64,000 nucleotides of DNA from Paraconexibacter antarcticus (lineage in GTDB: Bacteria; Actinomycetota; Thermoleophilia; Solirubrobacterales; Solirubrobacteraceae), in NCBI RefSeq assembly GCF_024220175.1, contig NZ_CP098502.1, forward strand, positions 3,724,514 through 3,788,513. Direction: 5' to 3'. How positions within the stretch are numbered: position 1 is the first letter of the stretch; the number at the start of each line of letters is the position of its first letter. Both the position numbers and the translations under genes were made by a program. Below, piece after piece: positions 2,772 to 35,715 of the stretch. The notes under the pieces are model-generated. The model was not told where the DNA came from. It did not search any database and saw nothing but the letters and a program-made list of their open reading frames with translations.

Positions 2772-2775
2772 GGTT

Positions 2776-5409: not shown

Positions 5410-5422
5410 CCAGGCCGCGTCA

Positions 5423-8873: not shown

Positions 8874-8947
8874 GGTGCCTTTCGACGGGCGGGTGAGGTC
8901 GAGGTGATTGTCGAGCGGGTGGGTCGGTGCGGCATCCCCATAAGGGG

Positions 8948-8979
8948 GTCTGCCCCTCTCACTGGTGAGAGGGACAGAC
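8948..8979 (-). terminator. Hairpin between the MaoC operon and the third ligase
   Basis: Fifteen-base arms (GTCTGCCCCTCTCAC and GTGAGAGGGACAGAC) pair with a single mismatch around a two-base centre. It begins six bases after the stop of the 8986-9417 gene. It would end or attenuate the long carboxylase/hydratase operon before the ligase gene. No T-run follows. Confidence 0.6.
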
Positions 8980-8985
8980 CTGCTT

Positions 8986-9860: not shown

Positions 9861-9905
9861 CTGACTCCTGGGTTCGGGGTTTGGCGAAAAGCTCTGGCGC
9901 CGCGC

Positions 9906-10676
<771 letters not shown>

Positions 10677-10677
10677 C

Positions 10678-12699
10678 TCAGCGGTCCTCGGTTTCAGGGT
10701 CGGCGATCACCGCGACGACGGCGCCGGCGTCGACCTGCGCTCCTTCGTCGACGAGCAGTTGCGTGACGGCACCGGCAGCCGGCGCCACGATCTCGTGCTG
10801 CATCTTCATCGCCTCGATGACGAGCACGACGTCCCCGGCGACCACGACCTCGCCGACAGCGCACGCCAGGCGGATGACCTTCCCGGGAACAGGCGAGGTC
10901 AGTGACCCGGGGGCCTGTTCATCCTCCGCGCCGGGGAAGCGCGGCTGCGCGCGGAACAGCAGCTGTCCGGTCGGGAGGTTGACGTAGACGTCCTCACCGT
11001 AGATCGCAACGCGGAGCGTCATGCGACGACCGTCGACCTGCAGATCGACCCGGTCCTCACGCGCATCGTAGACCCGACAGCCGTCCAGACCGACGCCATC
11101 GACGGTGATCTCATCGGGGTCCAGTCGGTAGCCGACCGCGAAGTCCTGGTCGCCATGGCGCACGGTACGCCGTTGGAGGGTGGAACGGTTGTTGCGCCAC
11201 CCCGACGGAAGCGAGCGTCCGTTCACCACGCCCGCGCGCTGGCACGCCTGCAACGCGAGCGCGGCGGCAGCAGCGGCGAGGCGCAGTTGTCCAGGGTCAT
11301 CCACGAGCGCGCCCGTCAGCGACGCCGCGGCCGGCGCGTCCAGGAACTGCGTGTCGAACCGGCCCGCGACGAAGTCCGGGTGCTCGAGCAGATGGACGAG
11401 GAAATCGCGGTTCGTCGTCAGTCCGTGGATCTCCGCATCGCGCAGCGCGGCTGCGAGCGTCCGGATCGCCTGGGCGCGAGTGGCCGCGTGCGCGATCACC
11501 TTGGCGATCATCGGGTCGTAGTCCGCCGTCACGGCGTCGCCCGCGACCGGCCCGGGGTCGACCCGGATCCCGGGCAGCGCCGGGATGCGGAATCGCTCCA
11601 GCGTGCCCGTCGCGGGAAGGAACCCGGTCGCGGCGTCCTCCGCGTAGAGACGCACCTCGACCGCGTGTCCGGTGATCTGCGGCTCGCCGATGACCTCGCT
11701 GAGGTGGCTCCGCTCCGCGATCGCGATCTGGGCCGCGACGAGGTCCAGCCCGGTGATCGCCTCCGTGACGGGATGCTCGACCTGGAGCCGGGTGTTGATC
11801 TCCAGGAAGAAGATCTCGTCCGTCGCCTCCGCGTAGAGGAACTCCACCGTGCCGACTCCCCGATAGTGCAGCGCGTTGCCGGCGTCGACCGCCACCTGCG
11901 TGAACCGGTCTCGCAACCCGGGACTCATCACCATGCAGGGTGCTTCCTCGAGGACCTTCTGGTGGCGTCGCTGGATCGAGCATTCCCGTTCGAAGAGGTG
12001 ACGCACATCGCCGTGGCAATCACCGATGATCTGCACCTCGATGTGCCGCGCCCGTTCGACGTACCGCTCCACGAACACGGTGTCGTCACCGAACGTGCTC
12101 AGCGCCTCGCTACGGGCACCGGCCAGCGCTGCCGCGAAGTCCTCGGCATGCCGGACGACCCGCATACCCTTCCCGCCGCCGCCCGCCGACGCCTTGATCA
12201 TGAGCGGCAGGCCGAGCCGGTCCGGGATCGAGGCAGTCTCCTCCTCGGAGGCCCCGTCGAGCGTCATCGCCGGGGCCACCGGGACGCCGGCAGCGATCAT
12301 CATCTCGCGTGCGCGTACCTTGGATCCCATCGCCTCGATGGTGGCCGGCGTCGGTCCCAGGAAGATGAGCCCGGCCTCCTCGCAGGCGCGGGCGAAGTCA
12401 GCGTTCTCGGCGAGGAACCCGTATCCGGGATGGACCGCATCCGCACCGGTGCACTGCGCCGCGCCGACGATCGCGTCGATCCGCAGATAGGATTCCGCCG
12501 CGCTCCGCCCCCCGAGGGCGAAGGCTTCGTCCGCCTCGTGGACGAACGGAGCGTCAGCGTCGACCTCGGAGAACACTGCCACGGTCCGGATACCCATCTC
12601 ACGGCAGCTGCGCTGAATCCGCCGGGCGATCTCGCCGCGGTTGGCGATGAGGATCTTGCGGACCACCGTCTCGGTCCGATCTTCAGGGTCATGGCTCAC
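10678..12699 (-). CDS. Acyl-CoA carboxylase alpha subunit (biotin carboxylase + biotin carrier)
   Basis: A 673-residue protein. The most likely start is the GTG at 12699, whose GTGA overlaps the beta-subunit stop; MVRKILIANRGEIARRI begins the conserved part about ten residues later. In order: the biotin carboxylase N-domain (HPGYGFLAENADFA), the ATP-grasp glycine loop (KASAGGGGKGMR), the active-site region FLEINTRLQVEHPVTE, and a C-terminal biotinyl domain with the biotinylated Lys in VIEAMKMQHE. It carboxylates biotin with ATP and bicarbonate for the partner beta subunit. Architecture and partner match methylcrotonyl- or geranyl-CoA carboxylases (LiuD/AtuF type). Confidence 0.9.
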   Translation of the reverse strand: MSHDPEDRTETVVRKILIANRGEIARRIQRSCREMGIRTVAVFSEVDADAPFVHEADEAFALGGRSAAESYLRIDAIVGAAQCTGADAVHPGYGFLAENADFARACEEAGLIFLGPTPATIEAMGSKVRAREMMIAAGVPVAPAMTLDGASEEETASIPDRLGLPLMIKASAGGGGKGMRVVRHAEDFAAALAGARSEALSTFGDDTVFVERYVERARHIEVQIIGDCHGDVRHLFERECSIQRRHQKVLEEAPCMVMSPGLRDRFTQVAVDAGNALHYRGVGTVEFLYAEATDEIFFLEINTRLQVEHPVTEAITGLDLVAAQIAIAERSHLSEVIGEPQITGHAVEVRLYAEDAATGFLPATGTLERFRIPALPGIRVDPGPVAGDAVTADYDPMIAKVIAHAATRAQAIRTLAAALRDAEIHGLTTNRDFLVHLLEHPDFVAGRFDTQFLDAPAAASLTGALVDDPGQLRLAAAAAALALQACQRAGVVNGRSLPSGWRNNRSTLQRRTVRHGDQDFAVGYRLDPDEITVDGVGLDGCRVYDAREDRVDLQVDGRRMTLRVAIYGEDVYVNLPTGQLLFRAQPRFPGAEDEQAPGSLTSPVPGKVIRLACAVGEVVVAGDVVLVIEAMKMQHEIVAPAAGAVTQLLVDEGAQVDAGAVVAVIADPETEDR

Positions 12700-14306
12700 G
12701 GGCGGAACACCCCGAAGCCCGCCGCGCCCTCGACGGGTGCCGAATGGCAGACCGACAGGGCCAGGCCGAGGACGGTTCGCGTGTCCCGCGGGTCGATGAC
12801 CGCGTCGTCGTAGAGGCGACCGCTCATGATCGGCGCGAGGGACTCGGACTCGATCTGCTCCTCCACCGCGGCTGCCTGACGGCGGTCCTCCTCCGCGTCG
12901 AACGGGATGCCGCGCGCCTCCGCGCCGGCTCGCGCGACGATGCTGAGAACACCGGCGAGCTGGGCCGGACCCATCACGGCGCTCTTCGCGTTGGGCCAGC
13001 TGAACATGAAGCGCGGGTTGAACGCCCGCCCGCTCATGGCGTACACGCCGGCACCGTACGCGGCACCGAGCACGACCGTGATGTGCGGCACCGTGCTGTT
13101 GGAGACGGTGTGGATCATCTTGGCGCCGTCCTTGATGATGCCGCCCTGCTCGTACTCCTTGCCGACCATGAAACCGGTGGTGTTCTGGAGGAAGATCAGG
13201 GGGACGTCTATCTGGTTGGCCAGCTGGATGAACTGCGTCGCCTTGCGCGCCTCCTCCGAGAAGAGGATGCCGCGGTGGTTGGCGAGCACGCCGACGCGAA
13301 AGCCGTGGATGCTCGCCCACCCGGTCACCAGGTTCGCGCCGTAGCGCGGCTTGAACTCGTCGAAGCGCGACCCGTCGACCATCCGGGCCAGAACCTCGCG
13401 CGGGTCGAACGGCACCGTCAGGTCGGCGGGGGCGATCCCGAGCAGCTCCTGCGGGTCGTGGAGCGGCGGATCCGGAGACTCGACCGGCCCCGGCCCCTGC
13501 TTCTGGCGGTTGAGGTTGCGCACGATCTGGCGGCCCAGGCGCAGGCAGTCGACCTCGTCGCTCGCCATGTAGTCGGCGAGACCGGAGACTCGTGAGTGCA
13601 TGTCGGCGCCGCCGAGGGACTCATCGTCGGAGATCTCGCCTGTCGCCATCTTCACCAGCGGCGGACCGCCGAGGAAGACCTTCGCCTGCCCTTTGACGAA
13701 GACGGTGTAGTCGCACATGCCGGGGAAGTAGGCGCCGCCAGCAGTCGCGTTGCCAAACACCAGCGCGATGGTGGGAATCGAGGCGCGCGACAACTTGGCC
13801 AGGTCGCGGTACATGGCGCCACCAGGGATCGCGACATCGAGCTGCGACGGCAGGTCCCCTCCACCGGATTCCACGAGATTGATCAGCGGCAGATGGTTCT
13901 CACGCGCGATGACCATCGTCCGCATGAGCTTCTTGAACGAGACGGGGTTCAGCGAGCCACCGCGAATCGTGGCATCGTGGGCGATGACCGCGCACTCGAC
14001 GTCCTCCACATACCCGATGCCCGTCACCACGTTGCCGCCGACCGGGAACTCGGTTCCCCATCCGGCCAGCGGCGAGAGCTCAAGGAACGGGCTGTCCGGA
14101 TCGAGGAGGAGCTCGAGCCGGTCACGCACGACGAGCTTGCCCCGCTCCACATGCCGCGCGACGTACCGCTCGCCCCCACCGGCGCGCACACCGGCGTGCG
14201 CCGCATCGAGCTCGGCGAGCCGCTCGAGCATCGCCGAACGGTTGCGGTGGAAGAGGTCCTCGCGACCGGTGATCTGCGTCGGCAACGCCGTGGCGGTCAT
14301 CAGCAT
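12696..14306 (-). CDS. Acyl-CoA carboxylase beta subunit (methylcrotonyl/geranyl-CoA type)
   Basis: A 536-residue carboxyltransferase. N- and C-terminal crotonase-like halves are visible: GNATAGGAYFPGMCDYTVFVKG in the first, and LQNTTGFMVGKEYEQGG with GAAYGAGVYAMSGRAFNPRF in the second. The QNTTGFMVG signature and the fusion of both halves place it with methylcrotonyl-/geranyl-CoA carboxylase beta, not acetyl- or propionyl-CoA types. The neighbouring AtuA-like genes favour an AtuC-like role, carboxylating a gamma-methyl group of a branched enoyl-CoA. That is inference: the methylcrotonyl/geranyl choice depends on a pocket residue I cannot place without an alignment. The start overlaps the upstream stop by one base. 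Confidence 0.88.
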   Translation of the reverse strand: MLMTATALPTQITGREDLFHRNRSAMLERLAELDAAHAGVRAGGGERYVARHVERGKLVVRDRLELLLDPDSPFLELSPLAGWGTEFPVGGNVVTGIGYVEDVECAVIAHDATIRGGSLNPVSFKKLMRTMVIARENHLPLINLVESGGGDLPSQLDVAIPGGAMYRDLAKLSRASIPTIALVFGNATAGGAYFPGMCDYTVFVKGQAKVFLGGPPLVKMATGEISDDESLGGADMHSRVSGLADYMASDEVDCLRLGRQIVRNLNRQKQGPGPVESPDPPLHDPQELLGIAPADLTVPFDPREVLARMVDGSRFDEFKPRYGANLVTGWASIHGFRVGVLANHRGILFSEEARKATQFIQLANQIDVPLIFLQNTTGFMVGKEYEQGGIIKDGAKMIHTVSNSTVPHITVVLGAAYGAGVYAMSGRAFNPRFMFSWPNAKSAVMGPAQLAGVLSIVARAGAEARGIPFDAEEDRRQAAAVEEQIESESLAPIMSGRLYDDAVIDPRDTRTVLGLALSVCHSAPVEGAAGFGVFRP

Positions 14307-14611
14307 CAGGTGTCGACCGCCATGCGGGACAGCACGGCGCCCATCGACTTCCCGGTCTCGTCGAAGCGCAAGGTCCGCGTCGCGCCACCGCCGAGGGCGC
14401 CGTGCATGACGACCTCGAAAGCGTGCAGGTTCGGAAGGGCGTGGACGACCACCGGGCCGCTCACCAGCCCATCGAGGTGCTGGAGGATCCGCTCGGGAAC
14501 GAGCGCGTCCTCGAGCAGCGCGTAGGCGTCGGCGTTGCGGGCCATCACCGCCACGTTGGACACGTCGCCCTTGTCGCCGGAGCGCAGGTACGCGAGATCA
14601 TGCACGTGCAT
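14306..14611 (-). CDS. AtuA-like C-terminal domain, stand-alone
   Basis: A 101-residue protein starting MHVHDLAYLRSGDKGDVSN. In longer AtuA proteins this RSGDKGD segment forms the small C-terminal domain; here it is a separate gene overlapping the main AtuA-like gene by 14 bases. It ends one base into the carboxylase beta start. The tight overlap on both sides and the matching families indicate that the two parts work together. The molecular function of the domain is not known to me. Confidence 0.75.
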   Translation of the reverse strand: MHVHDLAYLRSGDKGDVSNVAVMARNADAYALLEDALVPERILQHLDGLVSGPVVVHALPNLHAFEVVMHGALGGGATRTLRFDETGKSMGAVLSRMAVDT

Positions 14612-16007
14612 GGGACACCACCTCATCGGCGCGGAGGACGGCGACGCGGACGTCGACCTGGTCACGGGGCACCAGGGTCGGCCAGAGCGCGATCACCTTG
14701 CGCACCGGCGGCGGCAGGTTCACGGCCGTTCCCACCGGCCCGGCTGTGGCCAGGTGCACGATAGTCCGCCGGGCGAGCTCGGCCTCGGCGCGGGTATCGG
14801 TGCGGACCGCCACGCGCAGTTCGATCTCGTTGATGTCACGGTCACCGGTGGCCCCGGGGGCCGACGGGCCGGCCAGCGTATTGCGGCCGACGTGATCGAG
14901 CTGGATCTCCCGCACGTTCACGTTCAGGTACTCGAGCCGCCGGCGGACGAAGCGCTCGCACCACTCGGCCTTCTCGAACGCGTCAGGCCAGGGAAGCAGC
15001 ACGCGGCCCTCGCCGATGAAGCCGTCCTCGTAGCCGATCTGGACCTTGAGCAGCTCCGGTGGCGGGCCCGCCGACATGCCCGCCACGAGCATCCGGTTTT
15101 TCTCGAGCTCGGTGACGGTGACGCCGGAGAGGTCGACGACGCCGTCCGGAAGCCGGTAGTCGCGCGGGTCGTGGACTTCGTAGAGCATCTGCTCCTTGAT
15201 GGTCCACTCGTTGACGATGCCGCCGCTGCCCGGGAGCTTGGTGATCACGGCGCTGCCGTCGTCGGCCACCTCCGCCAGGGGATAGCCGATCCGCCACGGC
15301 TCCTCGGACTCCCGCCACTGCGATGTCATGCCGCCGCTCGAGGCGCCGCCGCACTCGAGCAGGTGGCCGACCGTCAGCGCCGCGCCGCGCTGGGCGTCGG
15401 TGCAGCTCTGCGGGGTCCAGCCGTAGTGGTGCATCAACGGCCCGGAATACAGCGCCGAGTCCGCGAGCCGCCCACCGACGACGACGTCGGCGCCGCCGCC
15501 GAGGGCCTCGATGACCCCATCGCATCCGAGGTAGGCGTGTGCCGCGACGATCTGGTCGGCGATCGAGTCGACGTCTTCCTCCCCCGTGTCCATGTTCGTG
15601 AAGCGCCAGCCAGACCGCCGGATGGCGTCAAGGCGCTCGGTCAGGTCGTCGCCCTCGATGACGCCGAGCCGCAGCTCGGCGTCGCCCTGCTCGCAGGCAA
15701 CCCCGGCGATCGCCCGGGCGGCGGCCTGCGGGTTGGCGCCCCCGGCGTTGGTCACGATCGTGACGCCGTTGCGGCGGGCCGGCGGCAGGCACTGGGCGAA
15801 GATCCCGGCAGTGTCGGGGATATGGCCCTTCTCCGGGTTCCGCAGGCGTGCCCGCTGAAGCGCAGCCACGCTGAGCTCCGCGAGCAGGTCGAAGCCCATC
15901 GCGTCCAGCTCGCCGTGCTCGAGCAGCTCGAGCGCGGGATCGACCATGTCTCCCCAGTAGCCGGTGCCGGCGCCGAGCCGGCATGGATTGGTCGCCGTGC
16001 TGCTCAT
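14598..16007 (-). CDS. AtuA-like acyclic terpene utilisation protein (DUF1446)
   Basis: A 469-residue protein starting MSSTATNPCRLGAGTGYWGD. Conserved DUF1446 features include GAGTGYWGD, FDLLAELSVAALQRA, VTNAGGANPQAAA, GADVVVGGRLADSAL and GSGGIVNEWTIKEQMLYEVHDP. AtuA is essential for citronellol/geraniol catabolism in Pseudomonas, but its biochemical role is not established to my knowledge. Association with a carboxylase of the geranyl/methylcrotonyl class repeats the atu context. The C-terminal domain is encoded separately by the next gene. The start lies one base after the thiolase stop, so it is co-translated with the thiolase. Confidence 0.85.
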   Translation of the reverse strand: MSSTATNPCRLGAGTGYWGDMVDPALELLEHGELDAMGFDLLAELSVAALQRARLRNPEKGHIPDTAGIFAQCLPPARRNGVTIVTNAGGANPQAAARAIAGVACEQGDAELRLGVIEGDDLTERLDAIRRSGWRFTNMDTGEEDVDSIADQIVAAHAYLGCDGVIEALGGGADVVVGGRLADSALYSGPLMHHYGWTPQSCTDAQRGAALTVGHLLECGGASSGGMTSQWRESEEPWRIGYPLAEVADDGSAVITKLPGSGGIVNEWTIKEQMLYEVHDPRDYRLPDGVVDLSGVTVTELEKNRMLVAGMSAGPPPELLKVQIGYEDGFIGEGRVLLPWPDAFEKAEWCERFVRRRLEYLNVNVREIQLDHVGRNTLAGPSAPGATGDRDINEIELRVAVRTDTRAEAELARRTIVHLATAGPVGTAVNLPPPVRKVIALWPTLVPRDQVDVRVAVLRADEVVSHARA

Positions 16008-16008
16008 G

Positions 16009-17196
16009 TCAGTTCGGTTCCCGTCCGACGATGGAGATGAACGACACGCAGGCTCCCGGCTGCCCGCCGAGGTTCTGCGTGAGGCCGAGCCGCGGGTTCT
16101 CGAGCTGGCGCTCACCGGCCTCCCCCCGGAGCTGCAGCCACATCTCGAACAGCATCCGCAGGCCGCTGGCCCCGATCGGATGCCCGAACGACTTCAGACC
16201 TCCGTCGGGGTTGACGGGCAGACGCCCGTCCAGGTCGAAGTGCCCGTCGAGGACGTCTTGCCAGCCGGCCCCCCGTTCGGAGAAGCCGAGATCCTCCATC
16301 AGCACGAGCTCAGTCGGCGTGAAGCAGTCATGGACCTCGGCCATCGAGATCTGCGTGCGCGGATCCGTCACGCCCGCCTGGGCGTACGCATCTTTGGCGC
16401 ACGCCACCACCTCCGTGAACGACGTGAAATCGTAACGCGGGTCCTGGGAGCCCTGCCCCGGTCCGGCGATCAGCGACAGCGCCTTGACGTAGATCGGGTT
16501 GTCGGAGTACCGGTGCGCGTCCTCCGCGCGGACGATCAGCGCCGCGGCCGCGCCGTCGGCGACGCCCGAGCAGTCGAAGATACCCAGCGGCCCCGCCACC
16601 AGCGGCGAACAGGCGATCGTCTCCTCCGAAACCACCTTGCGGAACTGCGCGCGCTCGTTCTTGGCCCCGTTCGCGTGGTTCTTGTAGGCGATCCGCGTCA
16701 TCACGCGCTTCATGACGTCCTCGTCGACGCCGTACGCCTGGGAATACGCCGGAACCAGCAACGAGAACAGCGCCGGCGCCGTCAGGTCGCTCTCGGTGCC
16801 GTCCCCGGGGAGCGCCGGCAGCACGAGCCCGGAGAAACCCGAGTCCTTCAGCTTCTCGGCCCCGACGGCCATCACGCAGTCGTAGGCGCCGGACGCCACC
16901 GCGTAGCAGGCGTTGCGGAACGCCTCCGATCCGGTGGCGCAGAAGTTCTCCACCCGGGTGACCGGCTTGTGGTCGATCTTGAGCGGACGCGAGAGCGTCA
17001 TGCCCGAGGAGCCAGAGCCCATCGTCCCGAGCCAGTAGGCGTCGACCGATTCGCGGGTGAAGTCGGGGACCGAACCCACGCACTCCTGCACGGCGTCGAC
17101 CATCAGGTCGTCGACCGAACTGTCCCAGTGCTCGCCGAAGGGCGTGCAGCCCATGCCGACGATCGCCACGCGGTCGCAGATCCCGTTACTGGCCAT
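16009..17196 (-). CDS. Thiolase (SCP2/acetyl-CoA acetyltransferase-like)
   Basis: A 395-residue thiolase-fold enzyme starting MASNGICDRVAIVGMG. The nucleophilic Cys is in ENFCATGSEAF, the general-base His in EVHDCFTPTEL, and GHPIGASGLRM is the C-terminal His motif. The CxH arrangement matches SCP2-type thiolases of actinobacterial sterol and branched-chain degradation, not FadA. It would cleave a 3-ketoacyl-CoA. It overlaps the HMG-CoA-synthase-like gene by 11 bases; in this enzyme class an OB-fold (DUF35) partner is usual, and here that partner is fused to the neighbouring protein. Confidence 0.88.
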   Translation of the reverse strand: MASNGICDRVAIVGMGCTPFGEHWDSSVDDLMVDAVQECVGSVPDFTRESVDAYWLGTMGSGSSGMTLSRPLKIDHKPVTRVENFCATGSEAFRNACYAVASGAYDCVMAVGAEKLKDSGFSGLVLPALPGDGTESDLTAPALFSLLVPAYSQAYGVDEDVMKRVMTRIAYKNHANGAKNERAQFRKVVSEETIACSPLVAGPLGIFDCSGVADGAAAALIVRAEDAHRYSDNPIYVKALSLIAGPGQGSQDPRYDFTSFTEVVACAKDAYAQAGVTDPRTQISMAEVHDCFTPTELVLMEDLGFSERGAGWQDVLDGHFDLDGRLPVNPDGGLKSFGHPIGASGLRMLFEMWLQLRGEAGERQLENPRLGLTQNLGGQPGACVSFISIVGREPN

Positions 17197-18613: not shown

Positions 18614-19374
18614 AGTTCCGTGTCCTCTTCGTGGGGTATCTCGACGCTGAGCGCAGCGTGAACGCAGACCCCGTCGGGGCCACTGACCTGCGCGTCGACG
18701 TCGACGACGTCGTGCTCGTCGGCTGCCCGCCGGTCGCGGACCCAGCCGGTGACCACGGCGTCTTGGCCGGCGCACAGCGAGCCGGAGATCCGGATGTCGC
18801 GGCTGCGGATGAACGCGCCGGGACCCGCCCAGTCGGTGATCAGGCGGTCCACAAGGCCCTGGAAGAAGAGCGTGGAGACGTAGATGGTCGGCTGGCCCTG
18901 CGCGCGAGCGTAGCCCGGATCATGGTGGCCCGGGAACCAGTCCCACGTGGCGGCGGCGTTCTGGCACACCCGCCGATGGTCGACGTGAAGGCGCACCGGC
19001 GGCAGGATTTCCGCGCCCGCGGGGCCGGTCGCCGCGGGGTCCGGCGCCGCGGGCTCACCGCCCGCTCCCCCGACGGCGTCGAACCGCAGCAGGACGTGTT
19101 CGGTGACGGTCGCCAGATGCTCATGTTGGTCGAAGTAGGACGTCCGCGTCCGGACGACGTGCCCGGGTCCGAGCCGTGTCTGCTTCAGCCCGCTGACGTC
19201 GACGATCTGTTCCTCGTGTGAGACCAGGTCCCCGACGGCCAACAACCGGTGGAACGCCGTCTGACAGGCCACGTTGATCAATGACCGCCCGCCGGACCGC
19301 CCGATCCACGCCCGCCCCGCGGCCTCGGAGCCGACTGCGATGTCCCTGCCGTCCAGCACTGCTGCCGAGCTCAC
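18610..19374 (-). CDS. MaoC-like acyl dehydratase
   Basis: A 254-residue double-hot-dog candidate. Start chosen at the GTG at 19374, just before conserved sequence (VLDGRDIAVGSEAAGRAWIGR); no good ribosome site decides it. The N-terminal half has SYFDQHEHLATVTEHVLLRF, and the C-terminal half has HVDHRRVCQNAAATWDWFPGHHD. The layout resembles mesaconyl-/FAS1-like dehydratases, where two hot-dog folds are fused and only one is catalytic. It overlaps the HMGS-like gene by ATGA coupling. It probably hydrates or dehydrates an unsaturated or carboxylated acyl-CoA in the same pathway as the carboxylase. Confidence 0.68.
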   Translation of the reverse strand: MSSAAVLDGRDIAVGSEAAGRAWIGRSGGRSLINVACQTAFHRLLAVGDLVSHEEQIVDVSGLKQTRLGPGHVVRTRTSYFDQHEHLATVTEHVLLRFDAVGGAGGEPAAPDPAATGPAGAEILPPVRLHVDHRRVCQNAAATWDWFPGHHDPGYARAQGQPTIYVSTLFFQGLVDRLITDWAGPGAFIRSRDIRISGSLCAGQDAVVTGWVRDRRAADEHDVVDVDAQVSGPDGVCVHAALSVEIPHEEDTEL

Positions 19375-19444
19375 GAATGAGCCCGGCCCACTGCACCGTC
19401 GGCGCCGGCCGGCAGCCTGCGGTTGTGACCATGCCGCGGCACGG

Positions 19445-20362
19445 TCAGCCTCCGACGGTGAGCCCGAGATCGGGGAAGGGCGCCGGCCCAGCCTCGGAGC
19501 CCAGGCTGTCGCCCAGGAACGCCTCGAGCTCTTCCGTCGACGGGGTCTGATCGAAGTGCACCTCAGCGGCCACGGAGTAGGGGGCGATGACCTGCGCCAC
19601 GCCGCCACCGCACACGAAGACCTGACCGCTGTAGCGCGCGCCCTGTGGGCCGGCGAGGACCGCCACCAGGGGGGCGACGTTGGCGGGGCTCCAGACATCG
19701 GCGCCGTTCGGGCCGGTCGGCAGCTGCCCGAAGGTCCCTTCGGTCATGCGGGTCCGTGCCCGCGGCGCGATCGCGTTCGAGGTGACGCCGTAGCGCTGCA
19801 TCTCACGAGCGACCGTCACCGCGAATGAGGCGATGCCCGCCTTGGCCGCCGCGTAGTTGGCCTGGCCGACGTTGCCGTACAACCCCGCCTCCGAACTCAT
19901 GCATACGATGCGGCCGTCGACCGGGGCGCCGGTCTGCTTGGCCACCGCGCGCCAGTTGGCGCACGCGGCGCGGGTGACGAGGAAGTGACCGCGCAGATGG
20001 ACCTGGAGGACCGCGTCCCAATCGGCCTCCTCCATCGAGAAGATCATCCGGTCGCGGAGGATCCCCGCGTTGTTCACCACGATGTCCAGATGGCCGAACT
20101 CGTCCAGCGCCCGCTGGACCATCGCCTGCGCGTCGGCCGCGTCCGAGACGCTGCCGCCGTCCGCGACGGCGACACCGCCGGCAGCGCGAATCTGCTCGCA
20201 GACCTCCCCCGCCGGCGTGGCATCCGCGCCTTCGCCGCGCCAGTCACCGCCGATGTCGTTGACGATGACGCTCGCTCCGCGAGCCGCCAGCAACTGCGCG
20301 ATCTCGCTGCCGATGCCGCGCCCTGCGCCCGTGACCAGGGCCACCCGTCCGTCAAGCTCCAT
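19445..20362 (-). CDS. SDR, 3-hydroxyacyl-CoA dehydrogenase-like
   Basis: A 305-residue SDR. ATG at 20362 is preferred to that at 20368 because GGGAGG precedes it by six bases. The NAD site is TGAGRGIG, then NNAG in VVNNAGILRDRMI, catalytic Ser in CMSSEAG, and YAAAK. The RDRMIFSMEEADWDAV block and the C-terminal FVCGGGVAQVIAPY are shared with the dehydrogenase part of MFE-2/17beta-HSD4 enzymes. That points to oxidation of a branched 3-hydroxyacyl-CoA. It probably starts the long operon running down to the MaoC genes; a GAACG-type palindrome lies 43 to 53 bases upstream. Confidence 0.87.
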   Translation of the reverse strand: MELDGRVALVTGAGRGIGSEIAQLLAARGASVIVNDIGGDWRGEGADATPAGEVCEQIRAAGGVAVADGGSVSDAADAQAMVQRALDEFGHLDIVVNNAGILRDRMIFSMEEADWDAVLQVHLRGHFLVTRAACANWRAVAKQTGAPVDGRIVCMSSEAGLYGNVGQANYAAAKAGIASFAVTVAREMQRYGVTSNAIAPRARTRMTEGTFGQLPTGPNGADVWSPANVAPLVAVLAGPQGARYSGQVFVCGGGVAQVIAPYSVAAEVHFDQTPSTEELEAFLGDSLGSEAGPAPFPDLGLTVGG

Positions 20363-20404
20363 CTCCATCCTCCCTGCCGATCGCGCGTGGCGACCGGCGC
20401 CTTT

Positions 20405-20697: not shown

Positions 20698-22251
20698 TCA
20701 CACGGCGGCACCGATGGTTTCCGCGGGGGCGTCGCGGCGCGTGCCTGGGGGGTCGAACCGGTAGTCCCCGAGGTCGTAGCGGGCGCTGCGCCAGGCGGCT
20801 TCCAGCGTGCTGGCGGGCCGGAACGGGGCGTCGCCGTTGACGTCGAAGTAATAGCTGTTGGCGGTCCCGCAGCTTCCCTGGAAGAAGACCTGCCGATCAC
20901 GCCGGCCGAGGACTTCGGCGAAGAAGCGGTCGTTGGCTTCGCGGGTCACCTCGACCCGGCTGGCGCCCTGCCGCCGCGCGTGCTTGAGGCAGCGGACGAT
21001 GTGGCGCATCTGGTTCTCGATAAGCGTGAAGTACGACGCACCGTTGTACGCGTAGGGGCCCAGGATCGTGAAGTAGTTGGGAAAACCGGGGACGCTGACG
21101 CCCTGATAGGCCTGGAAGCGATTCTCGGCCCAGAACTCATCGAGGTCCGCGCCGTCTGCGCCCGTGACCGGGAAGGGGGGCATGTTGCCCGCTTCGAAGA
21201 CCTTGAAGCCCGTGGCGAGGACGAGCACGTCGACCGGGTGCTCGACTCCGTCGCTCGTCTGCACCCCCTCGGGAGTGACCCGGGCGATGGGGGTGGTTTC
21301 AAGGGCGACGTTCTCACGGTTGTACGTCGCCAGGTACTCGTTGTGGAAGCTTGGCCGCTTGCATCCGAGGCTGTAGCTCGGTGTGAGCTTCGCTCGGACC
21401 TCAGGGTCCTGAACCTGCCGGCGCAGTTGTCGGCGCCCCAGCCGCTCGCCGTGCGAGGCGACCGGGACCAGGTCGGGGTAGTGCGCGGCGATCGGAAAGG
21501 TGAGCTCGACCAGGGTCTGGCTCACCGCGCGGAGCGCCCGGCGCGTGCCGGGAACCCATCGCATCGCTGCGCGCAGCGGACCGGCCAGCGGCAGATCCAG
21601 TTTGGGCAGGCACCAGATCGGCGTGCGCTGGAAGACGGTCAGCGCTGCAACCTCCGGGGCGATCGCCGGGATCAGCTGCACCGCTGAGGCACCGGTCCCG
21701 ATCACGGCCACGCGCTTGCCGCGCAGGTCCACGGCGTGGTCCCATCGGGAGGTGTGCATCGTCGTGCCGGCGAAGTCCTCGAGCCCGTCGATCTCCGGTG
21801 GCTTGGGCTGCGTCAGCACACCGGTGGCACCGACGACGTGCCGGGCGGTGATCGTGTCCCCACCGGCGGTGCTGAGACTCCACACGTGGCGAACGTCGTC
21901 GAATGCCGCGCCGGTCACGCGAGTGTTCAGCCGGATCCGCGGGCGCAGCCCGTAGCGGTCGACCAGAGACTCCGCGTATGCCTTGAGCTCCCGGCCCGGG
22001 GCGTAGACGCGCGACCAGTCCGAGCGCTGCTCGTAGGAGAACTGATAGCTGAAGGACGGGATATCGACGGCGACGCCCGGGTAGGTATTCCAATGCCAGG
22101 CGCCGCCGACACCGCTGCCCTCTTCGATCACGACGAAATCATTCATGTGCGCCCGGGTGAGCGCGATGGCCGCGCCGATGCCGGAGAAGCCGCCGCCGAT
22201 GATGACGACCTCGTGGTCAGGAGCCGGTGCGGATGAGGCTGTTTCGAGCAT
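20698..22251 (-). CDS. Flavin-binding monooxygenase, Baeyer-Villiger type
   Basis: A 517-residue two-dinucleotide-domain flavoprotein. The FAD loop is IIGGGFSGIGAA near residue 15, followed by GGAWHWNTYPG (class B monooxygenase block). The Baeyer-Villiger fingerprint appears as FAGTTMHTSRWDH; a standard fingerprint ends in W-P or W-D. The NADPH loop is VIGTGASAVQ. Family members insert oxygen next to a ketone or oxygenate N/S atoms using NADPH and O2. Beside a lipid/terpenoid catabolic cluster, ring opening or oxidation of a cyclic ketone is plausible. It follows an SDR (22380-23237) that could make the ketone. Confidence 0.86.
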   Translation of the reverse strand: MLETASSAPAPDHEVVIIGGGFSGIGAAIALTRAHMNDFVVIEEGSGVGGAWHWNTYPGVAVDIPSFSYQFSYEQRSDWSRVYAPGRELKAYAESLVDRYGLRPRIRLNTRVTGAAFDDVRHVWSLSTAGGDTITARHVVGATGVLTQPKPPEIDGLEDFAGTTMHTSRWDHAVDLRGKRVAVIGTGASAVQLIPAIAPEVAALTVFQRTPIWCLPKLDLPLAGPLRAAMRWVPGTRRALRAVSQTLVELTFPIAAHYPDLVPVASHGERLGRRQLRRQVQDPEVRAKLTPSYSLGCKRPSFHNEYLATYNRENVALETTPIARVTPEGVQTSDGVEHPVDVLVLATGFKVFEAGNMPPFPVTGADGADLDEFWAENRFQAYQGVSVPGFPNYFTILGPYAYNGASYFTLIENQMRHIVRCLKHARRQGASRVEVTREANDRFFAEVLGRRDRQVFFQGSCGTANSYYFDVNGDAPFRPASTLEAAWRSARYDLGDYRFDPPGTRRDAPAETIGAAV

Positions 22252-22379: not shown

Positions 22380-23237
22380 TCAGCGCAAAGCACCCACCTC
22401 GTCGGCAGAGTGGTCGTCGCTGCGTCGCCGCTCCGCCGCCGACCGGGGGATGTTCGCGCAAGCCTTGCCCAGTAGCCGCTGGAACGGCATGTTCACCCAG
22501 TAGATCGGGAAGGCGCGGCGCGGCTTGACCACCGCCGCCTTGTCCTGCTCGATCCCCCGGACGATCGCCTCAGCCGCGTCCTGCGACGAGACCAGCGGGC
22601 TCACCCCGAGCCGTTGCAGCCGGCCGAGGACGTCGCGGACCCCGGCAACCTGGGGGTCGGCCATGCCGTGGCTGAGCAACGGCGTGTCGATCGTGCCGAA
22701 GTAGACCGTCGTCACGCCGATGTCGTAGGGCTTCAGCTCGATCCGCAGCGTCTCGTTGAGCGCCGCGACTCCAGCCTTGGTCGCGTTGTAGTGGCCGAGC
22801 AGAGGCGCCCAGATGCGCGCGGCCAGCGAGGCCACGGTCACTACGTGCCCGCCCGTGCGCTTCAGCTGCGGGAGCGTCGCCTGGACCATGCGGAACGGGC
22901 CGGTGAGGTTGACGTCCAGCGTGCGCTGCCAGACCTCCTCGTCCAGGTGCTCGATCAGATGGCCCTCGCCGATCCCCGCGTTGTTGACGAGGATCGCGAT
23001 GTCACCGAGCTGCTCAGCCACCTGGGCGACCGCGGCCTGGATCGACTCATTGTCGGTGACGTCGAGATGGACGGCCATCCCGGGGACGGCGAGCGATGCA
23101 GCCACGCGCTGCGCCTTCTCAAGCTGCACGTCCGCCACCACCACCCGGCCGCCGCGGCGCGCCAGTGCTTCGGCCGTCGCCTGCCCGATGCCCTGCGCAC
23201 CACCGGTGACCAGGCAGACGCGATCACGAATATCCAT
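22380..23237 (-). CDS. Short-chain dehydrogenase/reductase
   Basis: A 285-residue SDR starting MDIRDRVCLVTGG after an AAGGAGG site. Motifs are TGGAQGIG, NNAGIGEG, catalytic Ser in VASLAAR and YNATK. A C-terminal extension with a hydrophobic PIYWVNMPFQRLLG segment may associate with the membrane. It overlaps the upstream anchored-protein gene by 14 bases, so all genes from about 25.5 kb down to the monooxygenase may form one transcript. The likely role is alcohol/ketone interconversion for the monooxygenase. Confidence 0.85.
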   Translation of the reverse strand: MDIRDRVCLVTGGAQGIGQATAEALARRGGRVVVADVQLEKAQRVAASLAVPGMAVHLDVTDNESIQAAVAQVAEQLGDIAILVNNAGIGEGHLIEHLDEEVWQRTLDVNLTGPFRMVQATLPQLKRTGGHVVTVASLAARIWAPLLGHYNATKAGVAALNETLRIELKPYDIGVTTVYFGTIDTPLLSHGMADPQVAGVRDVLGRLQRLGVSPLVSSQDAAEAIVRGIEQDKAAVVKPRRAFPIYWVNMPFQRLLGKACANIPRSAAERRRSDDHSADEVGALR

Positions 23238-23904
23238 GGGATCCTCCTTGGGAGACTGTACGAGCACCGGCCGCCGGGATCGTCGATCCCGCGTCCCGGA
23301 TGAGCCGCGCCACGTACATGGCGAGCATGAGGGCAACGAGTCCGACCGCGATGATGATCACGTAAGCCGTTGGCCTGGCCCACGAGGGCGGGTTTCCTGG
23401 TGCCGCCTCATCCACGAGATGCACGCGCATCACCTTCGGGGCGGTCAACAGCGGGCCGTTCTCACGCACGTAGACGCGCTCGCGGAACGCCCAGACCTTG
23501 TTGTCGAGGAAGAACCTCGGGGTCGTCCACCAGCTTCCCTCCTTCGGCCAGCTGAAGGTCGCCGTCTCGTAGCTCCGAGGCCCGGTCCTCCGCAACGGGA
23601 TGTAGAGGCGCTTTCCCCCGCGGAGCGTGTAGATGTCCGGAGCCCGGCTTGCGTGCGCGAGAAACGGGGCAGGGTCTGACGTCTGCCTGATCTTCTCCGT
23701 GAAGGGAAGTTTGGGCGTCACCTGCTGCACGTCGCGGAACGCATCCACGCGGATCTTCACCGGGTCCCCGATGCGCGGGTTTCCGGGAATGACGGTCATG
23801 TTGACATCCACGAGGATGCGCGCGCCGGCAGTACTGGGAACGAAGAAGCCCGCTCCGATCACCGCGCTCAGCGCGAGGGCAAGCGTACGACCGCGCACGA
23901 TCAT
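23224..23904 (-). CDS. Exported, C-terminally anchored protein of unknown function
   Basis: A 226-residue protein. Start MIVRGRTLALALSAVIG at 23904, where ATGA couples it to the upstream gene. It has a clear signal peptide (hydrophobic run, then PSTAGARI), about 150 residues outside the membrane rich in beta-type sequence (VDVNMTVIPGNPRIGDPVKIRV; GSWWTTPRFFLDNKVWAFRERVYV), and a C-terminal membrane helix (AYVIIIAVGLVALMLAMYVA) with a basic cytoplasmic tail. The external part looks like an immunoglobulin- or cupredoxin-like beta sandwich, but no metal-ligand set is obvious. Always coupled here to the polytopic protein; I infer a complex. Confidence 0.7.
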   Translation of the reverse strand: MIVRGRTLALALSAVIGAGFFVPSTAGARILVDVNMTVIPGNPRIGDPVKIRVDAFRDVQQVTPKLPFTEKIRQTSDPAPFLAHASRAPDIYTLRGGKRLYIPLRRTGPRSYETATFSWPKEGSWWTTPRFFLDNKVWAFRERVYVRENGPLLTAPKVMRVHLVDEAAPGNPPSWARPTAYVIIIAVGLVALMLAMYVARLIRDAGSTIPAAGARTVSQGGSHGYS

Positions 23905-25094
23905 CGTCCCACCCCCGCGACGGCAGCGGGACGCTCTGCGACGCCGTCGGCGACAGGCTCGACCAGGTCGTCCGAGGGACGCAGCATCCGGCCGGTCCGC
24001 ACGCCGACGTACCCGGCGAGCGCCCCGAGAGCCACCACGGCGATCCACACGCCGGGAGTCGAGAGCGTGCCGGTCCAAACGGGCTGGCTGCGGAAGGTCT
24101 GCTGCACTGCCTCGCTGCCCACGACGAGCGCCGGGAAGGCGCCTAGCGCGATCGCCAGCGGCCGACCACGCAGGCGGCCGCCCGTCGCGATGAAGAACCC
24201 GTCGAGGATCAGAGCGGGAATCACGAGCACGACGAAGTCGGCGTGCGGGACGTTGACGAGATCGTTGATGCCCACGAAGGCGAGCCGCGCGATCGTGACG
24301 AGCCCCATGACGATCGTCGTGCTCCACCGGCGCCCGATGAGCGTCAGCGCGAGAAACGCCGGGAAGGCCGCGAGGATGGCCATGAGCGGCGCACCCAGCC
24401 GGAGATCCCACTGCGGGATGTCGAAGTCGTACTCGGCCAGCGTCCCCATGCTGACGAGCGTCATCGAACCCATCGCCACGCAGGCCAGGAGCTCTCCGCG
24501 CGATATGGAGCGCAGTGGCCGCAGCACCGACAAGCGGCGACTGCGGTCGTGGATGTTGGCCTCACCGGCGATGATCGCGGTGATCGCAAAGAGGGCAGCG
24601 GCGGCGCTGATGATGATCAGCAGGTGCGGCGGGCTCCACAGCGTGACGTCGAGACCGAAGGTGCGATGCCACAGTTCGTCGAGGCCGAACGCGGCCTGAG
24701 GGGTGGCCATCATCGCCAGGGCGATCACGAGGATCGGCGAGTACGGCAAGCCCCGCCACATCCGCATCGGCGTGGACACTGGGCGCCCCTCGATCGCCGC
24801 GGCCGACGACATCGCCGTGAACAGGGAGAGGATCACAGCGACGAGTCCGAGCCCCGTGAGGATGAAGACATGTGGAGGCGAAAGCAGCGTGTCGCGTCCC
24901 CTCAGGATATGCCAGCCGATGTCCCAGTACCCGCCGGCGAACGCGATATACACCACCGCCACCATCACCAAGGTCAGCGGCCACTGGTGGATCAGACCCA
25001 CCTGCTGCGGGAGCAACGGCCTCAGCCGCTCCTCGTAGAACTGCGTCCCGCGTGCGGGACCCGCAGCGCGCGGGTCCCGCGTCGTCATCGCCAT
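23901..25094 (-). CDS. Polytopic membrane protein with duplicated WH...SPPH motif
   Basis: A 397-residue protein with about nine to ten membrane helices. Start MAMTTRDPRAAG is supported by AAAGGA upstream. Two related blocks appear: DIGWHILRGRDTLLSPPH and DELWHRTFGLDVTLWSPPH. Each has Asp, Trp-His, a second Asp and Pro-Pro-His at nearly equal spacing, which implies an internal duplication and perhaps a paired His/Asp metal site at the membrane. I do not recognise the family. It is coupled to the exported protein and lies upstream of the SDR and monooxygenase. A transport or oxidative membrane function is possible. Confidence 0.72.
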   Translation of the reverse strand: MAMTTRDPRAAGPARGTQFYEERLRPLLPQQVGLIHQWPLTLVMVAVVYIAFAGGYWDIGWHILRGRDTLLSPPHVFILTGLGLVAVILSLFTAMSSAAAIEGRPVSTPMRMWRGLPYSPILVIALAMMATPQAAFGLDELWHRTFGLDVTLWSPPHLLIIISAAAALFAITAIIAGEANIHDRSRRLSVLRPLRSISRGELLACVAMGSMTLVSMGTLAEYDFDIPQWDLRLGAPLMAILAAFPAFLALTLIGRRWSTTIVMGLVTIARLAFVGINDLVNVPHADFVVLVIPALILDGFFIATGGRLRGRPLAIALGAFPALVVGSEAVQQTFRSQPVWTGTLSTPGVWIAVVALGALAGYVGVRTGRMLRPSDDLVEPVADGVAERPAAVAGVGR

Positions 25095-25264: not shown

Positions 25265-25504
25265 TCAATCGGACCCGCCCTCAGTCCCCCCGGGCCCGGC
25301 GCCGGACACCGCCGACGGGGCCTCCTGTTCCAGGCGACGTCCCCCGACCTGGGAGAGGATCTTGAGGAACACGATCAACGCGAAGATGGGCACGGCGAAG
25401 AGTGCTGCACCCAGCCAGCCCGCGGCGTGCGCCATCGGCAGCACCACCGCTGCGCCGTGCGCGTTGATCGTCGCGGTTTGCGGCAGCAGGAGTCGACCAA
25501 GCAT
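25265..25504 (-). CDS. Small single-helix membrane protein
   Basis: A 79-residue ORF starting MLGRLLLPQTAT. One membrane helix (AAGWLGAALFAVPIFALIVFL) and a Gly/Glu/Ser-rich cytoplasmic tail follow. It has the same orientation as the polytopic protein gene 170 bases downstream and lies 83 bases after the TetR gene. No family recognised. Composition and helix support a real protein, but start and function are uncertain. Confidence 0.45.
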   Translation of the reverse strand: MLGRLLLPQTATINAHGAAVVLPMAHAAGWLGAALFAVPIFALIVFLKILSQVGGRRLEQEAPSAVSGAGPGGTEGGSD

Positions 25505-25587
25505 CGCAACAATGTAACAGCGAGCAACGCTGCGTAACTCGCCCTCCTCCGCACGCCCCCCCACGCGGCCGCGGCGGCGTCAGTGCC

Positions 25588-26223
25588 TCATCGGCCCGCG
25601 CGAGGGCGGCGTTTCGCGGCACCCTCGGGTGGAGTGCCGATCAATGCCGGGGCAACGTACCGGCGCGCGAAGCGCCGAATATCGTCGGGGCGATCCAGAG
25701 GGACCACACTCGTCGGCGTGAGGATGAACGAGAGCACGAGGCGCACGATGATCTCGCCCGTGGCCTCCACGTCGAGCGGCGGAAGACGACCGGCGCGCAC
25801 CTCGACGCCGAGGCGTTCGGCGACGAGACGGGAGGCGGCGGCGATCACCGGCCCCCCAAGCGTCGTGAGATGCGGGACGACCGATTCGGGTTCGGTGGTG
25901 ACCAGCCGGTTGAAGAGCAGGTGTGCGCGCAGGAACTCGAGCGCGAACACGAAGCTCTCAGCAGCACGTTCCTCGAAGGTGTCACGCTGCCCGACGGCCA
26001 CGTCGAGCGCCTCGAAAAAGCGACGTGCCTCGCGGAGGATCACGGCCTCCGTCAACGAATCCTTCCCGGCAAACCGCCGGTAGATCGTCACCCGCGAGAC
26101 GCCCGCTGCCCGCGCAACGTCGTCCATCGTCGTCCGTCGAAACCCGAAACCCTCGAAAGTCTTGAGAGCGGCGTCGAGGATGCGCTCGACGCCCTCGTCC
26201 GGCTCCCCCACGGCGTCAAGCAC
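25588..26223 (-). CDS. TetR-family transcriptional regulator
   Basis: A 211-residue repressor. GTG at 26223 is chosen because GGAGG precedes it by about ten bases. The N-terminal helix-turn-helix is typical: ILDAALKTFEGFGFRRTTMDDVARAAGVSRVTIYRRFAGKD. The remaining 140 residues are the ligand-binding helical domain. It is divergent from the BadH-like SDR, and the gap between them has AACG/CGTT inverted repeats resembling those before other operons of the region. I infer control of these operons by an acyl-CoA or pathway intermediate, as is usual for TetR proteins of lipid catabolism. Confidence 0.85.
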   Translation of the reverse strand: MLDAVGEPDEGVERILDAALKTFEGFGFRRTTMDDVARAAGVSRVTIYRRFAGKDSLTEAVILREARRFFEALDVAVGQRDTFEERAAESFVFALEFLRAHLLFNRLVTTEPESVVPHLTTLGGPVIAAASRLVAERLGVEVRAGRLPPLDVEATGEIIVRLVLSFILTPTSVVPLDRPDDIRRFARRYVAPALIGTPPEGAAKRRPRAGR

Positions 26224-26315
26224 ACGAATCAGCACCCTCCGAGAGTACCGCCACGGGAAGCGGCCCGGCCTCTTCCTGCGGTTCGGGAAGCGACGAGCGG
26301 GCATGATGCGTGGCC

Positions 26316-26538
26316 TCGGACTGGCCGACCACGAGGGCCGAGCTGTGCCGCGAGCACGACATCGCCGACAGCCTCCTTCGCAAGGGGCGGAGCAGTTCCT
26401 CGCCACGGGCGCCGAGCGGTTGTCGAGCGCACCGAGGCCGACGAGCTCCGCCAGCGGGTGGCGAAGCTCGAGCGCGCGCTGGGGCGCATGACACTGGAGG
26501 TCGAGGTCGCGTGGGAACTCTTGCGGGGATGGGAGTGA
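26316..26538 (+). pseudogene. Fragment of an IS3-type transposase orfA
   Basis: Three short stretches in three frames read like consecutive pieces of one IS3-family OrfA: ELCREHDIADSLLRKG, then EQFLATGAERLS, then EADELRQRVAKLERALGR followed by a helical end and a stop at 26536-26538. At least two frameshifts separate them, and no OrfB follows. An old insertion has decayed in the regulatory gap. Confidence 0.6.
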
Positions 26539-26578
26539 GCATGCGCGTCGCCCCTTCCCGAACGTGACTCCCGTTGGC

Positions 26579-26588
26579 AACGCTCGTT
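26579..26588. promoter_or_regulatory. AACGCTCGTT palindrome before the BadH-like SDR
   Basis: A symmetrical AACG-CT-CGTT lies 71-80 bases before the SDR start. A second, wider AACG...CGTT pair sits at 26561-26575. Candidate operator of the divergent TetR regulator. Confidence 0.38.
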
Positions 26589-27414: not shown

Positions 27415-27751
27415 TATGGGGATCCGGTTGTCGAGTGGGCGTGTGGTGTCGCCGGCCGCCGGCGGTCGGTTTGCGTGGTGTGTGGGCCGGGTTCTCGGGG
27501 CGGGCCGCCGCTGCGCGACGACTGATCTGCCTGATATTCGCGGGCTGGGTACCGCTGGACCGTTGTTCGTCGCTGGCTGACCCGTCTGATGATCGAGCGC
27601 GCCCCGCGTGCGGGGTGCTCACAGGCCAGTGGTCAGCCATGTTGCGCGACGGGGCGGCCGGCCCCGACAGCCCGGCCGGGCTGTTTGGAGTTCCCCCGGT
27701 TTCGTGGACATCTGATGGCTGAGGTTGCTCAGCCCGAGAGGATGTCTGCAT

Positions 27752-28042
27752 ATGCCCAAGGTCCCGCCGTACTCGTTGGAATTCCGCCTGGAGGCCGTTC
27801 GGCTCCTGCGGTCCAGCGGCCGCACCGTCCCGCAGCTGGCGAAGGAGCTCGGAGTCTCGGAAGGGTCGCTGCGCAGCTGGCGCGAGCAGCTTGACGCTGA
27901 CGAAGGTCGCTCGGAGGGCCTGAGCACCAGCGAGCGCGAGGAGCTGCGGCGCCTGCGCAAGGAGAACCGGATCCTCGCGGAGGAGCGTGAGATCCTAAAA
28001 AAAGCAGCGGCCTTCTTCGTGGCAGAGAACAAGAACCGGTGA
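27752..28042 (+). CDS. IS3-family transposase OrfA
   Basis: A 96-residue protein starting MPKVPPYSLEFRLEAVRLL. It has a helix-turn-helix (VPQLAKELGVSEGSLRSW) followed by a Leu-rich coiled coil (EELRRLRKENRILAEEREILKK) for multimerisation and DNA binding. The run CTAAAAAAAG at 27995-28004 is a classic -1 slippery site (A-AAA-AAA), and the -1 frame stays open into OrfB. A fused OrfAB transposase should therefore be made by programmed frameshifting. Confidence 0.88.
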   Translation: MPKVPPYSLEFRLEAVRLLRSSGRTVPQLAKELGVSEGSLRSWREQLDADEGRSEGLSTSEREELRRLRKENRILAEEREILKKAAAFFVAENKNR

Positions 28043-28977
28043 TCGCCTTCCGGTTCGTTCTGGCGAACAAGGCCTGCCACTCGATCAGCCTGATGTGCCG
28101 TGTGCTCGCGGTCTCGCGCTCGGGCTATCACGCCTGGATCGTTCGGCCGCCGTCGGCCCGGGCCGTCGCTGACGCGGCGCTCACCGACCAGATCTCGGTC
28201 ATCCACACGGACGCGCTGAAGACCTATGGCTCCCCGCGGATCCATGCCGAGCTGCGGCTGCAGCACGACGTTCTGGTCGGCCGCAAACGCGTGGAGCGGC
28301 TGATGCGCAACGCCGGCCTCTCGGGCCTGCACAAACGACGGCGCGGACGCACCACGATCCGCGTGCAGGGCGTGCGGACCGCACCCGATCTGGTGGAGCG
28401 CGACTTCAACCCGACCCGGATCAACCAGCTGTGGGTCGCCGACATCACCTACATCCGCACGTGGGAAGGGTGGCTCTACCTGGCGTCGGTGATGGACTGC
28501 TACAGCCGCCGGATCGTCGGCTGGGCGATGGCCGATCACATGCGCGCCGAGCTCGTCATCGACGCGCTGGAGATGGCCGTCGCCAGGCGCCGGCCCGACG
28601 GGCGGCCGATACATCACAGCGACCAGGGCGGGCAATACACGTCTCTGATCTTCACCCAGCGCTGCCGCAGCGTGGACATCGACATCTCGATGGGATCCAA
28701 GGGCGACTGCTACGACAACGCCGCGATGGAGAGCTTCCACGCGAGCCTGAAGAAGGACCTCATCCACCGCCGCTCGTGGCCGACCAAGACCGAGGCGCGA
28801 ACAGCGGTGTTCGGCTACATCGAGACGTTCTACAACCGCCGCCGACGCCACTCCCGCCTCGGGATGCTCAGCCCCGTGGACTACGAGAACACCCCTCTAC
28901 GCGATACGGGAACGGCTTTCTCCCCCTCCCCCGACCAGACCCTGTTGACTACAACAACGGCCGCTCACGCGGCCTAA
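28039..28977 (+). CDS. IS3-family transposase OrfB (integrase catalytic domain)
   Basis: A 312-residue DDE protein whose GTG overlaps the OrfA stop. An HTH_21 segment (YGSPRIHAELRLQ) precedes the rve core. The catalytic acids are in VADITYIRT (D), HHSDQGGQY (D) and DNAAMESFHASLKKD (E, 35 residues later), followed by the usual ETFYNRRRRHSRLG and SPVDYE. All parts look intact, so the element is probably active. Confidence 0.9.
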   Translation: MIAFRFVLANKACHSISLMCRVLAVSRSGYHAWIVRPPSARAVADAALTDQISVIHTDALKTYGSPRIHAELRLQHDVLVGRKRVERLMRNAGLSGLHKRRRGRTTIRVQGVRTAPDLVERDFNPTRINQLWVADITYIRTWEGWLYLASVMDCYSRRIVGWAMADHMRAELVIDALEMAVARRRPDGRPIHHSDQGGQYTSLIFTQRCRSVDIDISMGSKGDCYDNAAMESFHASLKKDLIHRRSWPTKTEARTAVFGYIETFYNRRRRHSRLGMLSPVDYENTPLRDTGTAFSPSPDQTLLTTTTAAHAA

Positions 28978-35707: not shown

Positions 35708-35715
35708 GCCTTCTC

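Follow-up and report, generated by a model that had tools for sequence, protein, structure and literature searches.

A coupled membrane protein pair of Paraconexibacter antarcticus with likeness to subunits C and A of copper membrane monooxygenases

The stretch of DNA analysed here (the window) comprises 64,000 nucleotides of the Paraconexibacter antarcticus genome (contig NZ_CP098502.1, positions 3,724,514 to 3,788,513) and contains two coupled genes for membrane proteins, P0001 and P0002. P0001 is a polytopic protein whose two halves resemble subunits C and A of the copper membrane monooxygenases, enzymes that control methane and ammonia oxidation and whose active copper site is still argued. 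The start of P0002 lies inside the stop of P0001 (4-base overlap ATGA, 23901-23904). The first-pass annotation had described the partner as coupled, exported and anchored by one C-terminal helix, which agrees with the overlap, a signal-like hydrophobic stretch seen by eye at the N-terminus and a single helix at the C-terminus. The features of the pair are as follows.

23901..25094, minus strand: P0001, polytopic protein of 397 amino acids (aa), a PmoC-like N-terminal half and a PmoA-like C-terminal half in a single chain
24870..24923, minus strand: P0001 block 1 (residues 58-75), D-x3-H-x4-R-x7-H, spaced as the CuC site of PmoC
24624..24680, minus strand: P0001 block 2 (residues 139-157), D-x3-H-x13-H, spaced as the CuD site of PmoC, with D where PmoC has N
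23952..24521, minus strand: P0001 residues 192-381, PmoA/AmoA fold with outward loops EYDFDIPQ and NVPHAD
23224..23904, minus strand: P0002, 226 aa, exported beta domain and C-terminal anchor helix, equivalent to the C-terminal domain of one-piece homologues

Block 1 (DIGWHILRGRDTLLSPPH; D58, H62, R67 and H75) and block 2 (DELWHRTFGLDVTLWSPPH; D139, H143 and H157) are a real tandem duplication, as had been proposed from the near-equal spacing of the two motifs. Residues 36-104 aligned with residues 112-186 at an hhalign score of 40.1 (P 6.3e-8), with the ligand Asp and His residues all in register. The comparison used a 79-sequence alignment (A4) that excludes near-copies above 85% identity and short pieces, and in which motif invariance is partly by construction. 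None of 150 column shuffles reached this score and the reversed control gave 11.5; the duplication is not due to chance because the highest shuffle score was 20.1. Both block spacings occurred together in only 2 of 1400 distinct predicted open reading frames (ORFs) outside the family in the same loci, and in none of the 1400 when the Arg was added. In the structure model of P0001 (predicted local distance difference test, pLDDT, 77; predicted template modelling score, pTM, 0.77), D58 and H62 lie inside helix 38-65 and H75 opens helix 73-101; D139 and H143 lie inside helix 132-146 and H157 opens helix 155-185. The mean number of Lys plus Arg in successive loops across the 79 sequences alternated (1.29, 3.03, 0.81, 2.92, 0.58, 1.96, 0.27, 2.57, and 0.34), and both motif loops are therefore placed outward, a prediction that combines the helix ends in the model with the positive-inside rule. 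The same charge alternation puts the conserved loops EYDFDIPQ and NVPHAD on the outer face with them.

The spacing of block 1 is that of a known copper site. A passage of PMC12576850 gives the CuC ligands of PmoC as D156, H160, and H173 with R165 nearby (D-x3-H-x4-R-x7-H), and the CuD ligands as N227, H231, and H245 (N-x3-H-x13-H); the CuD site is described in part of PMC9038741 as conserved only in bacterial lineages. Block 1 of P0001 matches the CuC spacing exactly, Arg included, and block 2 has both CuD histidines at the same spacing with Asp replacing Asn. The counterparts of block 1 are QDGTWHMTVIRDTDFTPSH in 4phz and DGSWHQTAVRDTALTPSH in an actinobacterial HmoC (L140), and Trp-His, Arg-Asp, Pro-x-His and the Arg position are common to P0001 and PmoC. 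Block 1 of the homologue L041, DVSWHIDFGRDEFLFTPSH, is one residue longer than that of P0001. Profile comparison of hairpin 1 of P0001 with hairpin 1 of PmoC, run only after the motif had been noticed, gave a score of 25.5 (P 1e-4) with the ligands in register; none of 150 shuffles scored as high (maximum 17.6). Among AmoC windows, the four that hold the motif scored 25.4-27.1 and the next 15.0, and windows of PmoA/AmoA or of the second half of P0001 scored at most 13.5. P0001 differs from PmoC, AmoC, and HmoC (PF04896) in that its hairpin duplicate is recognisable by sequence, in the fusion to the next domain, in the Asp of block 2 and in having no Pfam match.

The C-terminal half resembled PmoA in structure comparisons. 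VIA-align re-aligned only the top 1000 Foldseek chains from the Protein Data Bank (PDB); of the 50 rows listed for the P0001 model, the first eight were all PmoA/AmoA entries with Z 12.7-13.7 (7s4h, 9cl2, 9cl1, 9leg, 9cl6, 3rfr, 9pxf, and 7s4l; 178-192 residues aligned at a root-mean-square deviation, rmsd, of 4.6-7.7), followed at row 9 by vinculin with Z 9.4. The aligned chains of all eight entries were identified by sequence as A subunits, and six of the eight alignments fell within model residues 192-393. The three best rows for the model of a one-piece homologue (L012; pLDDT 93, pTM 0.92) were again PmoA/AmoA (Z 9.7-10.5; rmsd 3.1-3.3 in two cases), with residues 217-401 as the PmoA-like region. 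The likeness to PmoA is argued because one family fills all the first rows with both models and the order along the chain is C then A. PmoC was absent from these lists, which cover the Foldseek top 1000. The region is set apart from PmoA/AmoA (PF02461) by its marginal profile similarity and its fusion behind a C-like part.

Most homologues of P0001 are single chains of about 600-700 aa in which the PmoC-like hairpins and the PmoA-like domain are followed by a helix, a beta domain, and a last helix. P0002 matched the beta domain and last helix of these one-piece proteins (hhalign P 1e-6 over 108 columns), and a search of 296 genomes with P0002 found its best non-self matches inside family ORFs (G297, 39% over 99 residues; G233). 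P0001 and P0002 are the two-gene form of a one-gene family because P0002 matches the one-piece C-terminal domain. The one-piece beta domain had weak matches to YtkA/FixH (best 0.021) and a structural match to the copper protein CrdA (Z 6.8); the Pfam match is not significant and no common metal site was seen. Like PmoB and AmoB, P0002 is third in gene order and is an exported, membrane-anchored protein with a beta domain, but it has one domain only and no detectable sequence relation to them. Two other candidate partners, L162 and L163, matched only the last helix of P0002 and were rejected as parts of other polytopic proteins, which by resemblance we take to be CbtA.

The family is widespread, with many of its carriers soil actinobacteria, and its block residues are conserved. 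Homologues lacking the histidines, named earlier as a result that would refute the proposal, were looked for among the 59 loci fetched by similarity to P0001 (L001-L059, its own locus included), and all 59 keep the block residues; the proteins for this count were cut out by motif patterns, strict in 48 loci and looser in 11. Among 139 loci, the strict motif gave a protein in 126 and the looser one was needed in 13. One locus set was found with the pattern FGQDVTLW and a second pattern, and many of its members, taken from the matches listed (80 of 546), hold block 2 by construction. With the own genome counted each time, the family was present in 37 of 61 relatives, in 83 of 232 genomes of the order at E 1e-10, and in 35 of 296 genomes of the phylum, compared to 3 of 296 for canonical subunit C. 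That PF04896 detects these three genomes shows that the model works. Carriers among the matches listed include Mycobacterium gordonae, M. szulgai, Gordonia amicalis, Nocardioides, Blastococcus, Solirubrobacter soli, Svornostia abyssi and one contig binned as Chloroflexota. P0001 itself is a lone long branch (3.5) of unsure placement in the family tree, and none of the 232 genomes of the order held a closer relative. Three paralogues occur in its own genome, two of them one-piece (L002 and L003). The third (L004, 1177-2403) has a short Cys/His-containing tail, adjoins TetR-like and insertion-sequence genes, and may be cut short.

Known systems were searched for in several ways. Neither PF04896 nor PF02461 matched anywhere in the P. 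antarcticus genome, a PDB phmmer search for the P0001 family returned nothing, and a scan of viral contigs with HmoC and of phage records yielded no relative. A literature search, whose coverage left aside most subscription journals and all bioRxiv preprints, found no title or abstract opening on a fused C-A form or on the P0001 family, which is weak evidence. The HmoCAB systems of actinobacteria (M. chubuense NBB4 and plasmids of Rhodococcus and M. dioxanotrophicus) share the phylum and the C-A-B order; they differ in that each subunit has its own gene, annotated accordingly, and in having the AHGE sequence with which mature PmoB starts.

The duplication, ligand spacing, conservation, PmoA fold match, relation between fused and split forms, and gene order were computed directly. 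Homology of P0001/P0002 to the copper membrane monooxygenases, judged from sequence comparisons and structure models, is well supported and probable. Oxygenase activity may be given about an even chance, and the full reading of P0001/P0002 as a membrane complex that would be a distant, C-A-fused relative of pMMO, AMO, and HMO hydroxylating a hydrophobic substrate is of similarly balanced probability. The first-pass annotation had offered a metal oxidase or a transporter; the CuC spacing of block 1 and the PmoA fold of the second half favour the oxidase, and the transporter is disfavoured. The ligand set of a CuC site (Asp and two His) and a subunit A fold are present in the pair, as is the C-A-B order of xmoCAB operons. 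The three CuB histidines, matches to the curated subunit models and the three separate genes xmoC, xmoA, and xmoB are absent; the C-like and A-like parts are one ORF, to which most homologues add a third part. P0001/P0002 is not a member of the class as defined, having no CuB histidines and no Pfam match.

A broader proposal is somewhat less probable and is put forward tentatively: the family may be a sister lineage of the copper membrane monooxygenases, deep-branching and unannotated, in which C and A (and in most members the outer domain too) are fused. It is widespread in actinobacteria including mycobacteria, Nocardioides, and Solirubrobacterales, would oxidise larger hydrophobic compounds and may keep, in its two near-symmetric Asp-His-His hairpins, the ancestral state that gave rise by duplication to CuC and CuD of PmoC. 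If true, the known reach of copper membrane monooxygenase chemistry would shift, and a one-piece relative without CuB in culturable actinobacteria would offer a simpler system in which to test CuC and CuD.

Several results weigh against the oxygenase reading. P0001 had no Pfam or NCBIfam match, AmoC was not among the weak matches of 26 family members, a profile of the N-terminal half had no match in the PDB up to E 10, and Foldseek found nothing below 1e-3 in the PDB or BFVD. Hairpin 2 did not match PmoC hairpin 2 significantly in profile comparison (P 0.14). The C-terminal half matched the AmoA profile marginally (21.15, compared to a shuffle maximum of 20.55). The rmsd of PmoA to the P0001 model, 4.6-7.7, also counts against the reading, and a Z near 13 is attainable by chance among helical models. 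PmoB as a relative of P0002 was unsupported (hhalign P 0.2; domain profile 0.17-0.39), and P0002 has three His in total, none in the PmoB pattern HG...H-x-H. The B-site of AmoB is described in part of PMC9038741 as needed for activity; the standard mechanism is disfavoured because P0002 is without the CuB histidines. Genes around the family, treated below, add two further points of this kind.

The pair precedes a short-chain dehydrogenase (SDR) and a Baeyer-Villiger-type enzyme, as the annotation had stated, and the first 14 bases of the SDR gene are shared with the end of P0002. The surrounding genes are listed below.

22380..23237, minus strand: SDR (PF00106, 2e-50), ATG at 23237
20698..22251, minus strand: flavin monooxygenase of Baeyer-Villiger/FMO type (Pyr_redox_3 2e-18, FMO-like 2.5e-5)
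25588..26580, minus strand: TetR-family regulator, upstream, start codon uncertain
25265..25564, minus strand: small ORF of 99 aa lying between P0001 and the regulator, without a Pfam match; it includes a hydrophobic stretch and is possibly not a real gene
14601..16115, minus strand: AtuA (acyclic terpene utilisation) protein (1.4e-122) with its ferredoxin-like domain, catabolic cluster
10681..14306, minus strand: biotin carboxylase and carboxyl transferase of the AtuA cluster

Enoyl-CoA hydratase, thiolase-like proteins, CoA ligases, and acyl-CoA dehydrogenases are encoded on the same strand. The cluster at window 371-20368 (minus strand), with AtuA, a biotin-dependent acyl-CoA carboxylase, two acyl-CoA dehydrogenases, CoA ligases, an HMG-CoA-synthase-like protein, and thiolase-like proteins, looks like one for degradation of a branched acid or terpenoid.

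In the proposed mechanism, P0001 would combine subunit C and A parts, two helical hairpins with outer-face D/H/H sets followed by the PmoA-like domain, and P0002 would substitute for subunit B, its membrane-anchored beta domain pointing outward and lending outer support. At the outer face, block 1 would bind copper; block 2 may be a second copper site or an electron or proton partner, and the A-like helical domain would hold the substrate. Oxygen would be activated near the outer leaflet and, with two electrons, yield a hydroxylated hydrophobic compound, which the SDR could oxidise to a ketone or aldehyde and the Baeyer-Villiger-type enzyme could convert to an ester, with the AtuA/carboxylase cluster, to judge by its gene content, degrading the resulting branched acid. 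An isoprenoid substrate, suggested by the same genes, is rather unlikely.

A flavin monooxygenase adjoins the core gene in the window and in L019, L028, L055, L087, L118, L129, and L198, and in L129 the core gene is followed by genes for flavin monooxygenase, SDR (by eye), and alpha/beta hydrolase, in that order. Compared to flanking DNA, the nearness of flavin monooxygenases was not significant (6 near, 3 far; p 0.23), which weighs against the oxygenase reading, and neither was SDR enrichment (p 0.36), both in 67 loci after merging of near-copies, a step that removed L087 and L118 beside L189. Because these enrichments are not significant, support for the oxidation pathway comes mainly from the window operon and L129. 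In L087, L118, and L189, the one-piece gene lies between a flavin monooxygenase downstream and, upstream, genes that look like the last membrane subunits of a complex I operon.

The main rival explanation accepts the same ancestry and holds that the copper these proteins bind on the outer face serves homeostasis, sensing, or delivery to cytochrome oxidase, the copy in the window having been recruited into a catabolic operon. Some relatives do lie among copper-handling genes, the second of the two points against oxygenase activity: plasmid homologue L150 is beside heavy-metal P-type ATPases, a multicopper oxidase and a four-helix copper protein, and L151, also on a plasmid, is beside CopC, oxidase subunit III, and an oxidase assembly protein. 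MerR-type regulators were the commonest neighbours (18 of 94 adjacent ORFs, surveyed in 58 loci with a home-made gene caller that also takes false ORFs), and the YtkA/FixH and CrdA likenesses of the beta domain fit such a role. Against it, both the window operon and the L129 locus have a catabolic gene set that includes SDR and flavin monooxygenase, only 2 of the 94 adjacent ORFs were cupredoxin-like and no copper transporter was among the 25 families listed; copper handling is possible and on balance unlikely. Cupredoxin-like lipoproteins (PF13473 below cut-off) neighbour family members in mycobacteria, and a plastocyanin-type or cupredoxin-like gene (PF13473 and PF00127 above cut-off) is beside the core in L170; copper-related surroundings would suit either kind of copper protein.

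It is a good deal less likely that P0001 is another membrane metalloenzyme, such as a hydrolase, dehydratase, or desaturase, whose D/H hairpins arose independently of PmoC. Sequence searches found no known relative and hairpin 2 lacks a significant PmoC match, as this explanation would have it, but the residues shared with PmoC in block 1, a hairpin 1 profile match above all shuffles, and a PmoA-like fold directly after the hairpins argue for common descent. A transporter for the substrate of the cluster, suggested by a polytopic protein within a catabolic operon, is highly improbable given the invariant Asp/His/His sets with oxygenase-like spacing and structure comparisons in which transporters appeared at insignificant scores and none was prominent.

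Other genes recur near the family. One or two genes downstream of the one-piece homologue, loci of Mycobacterium, Gordonia, and Blastococcus encode a polytopic protein of about 430-480 aa (L105, 10048-11349; L066, 9984-11321; L102, 9753-11195), of which the L105 copy has no Pfam match. A gene pair at window 35078-36492, about 10 kb from P0001, recurs in L192 (3566-4940), three to four genes from a family member, and is presumably DUF1326 plus DUF2182. Transposase-like genes, recognised by eye, surround the cluster at window 27725-28977, 29337-30671, 41012-41890, and 48086-49402.
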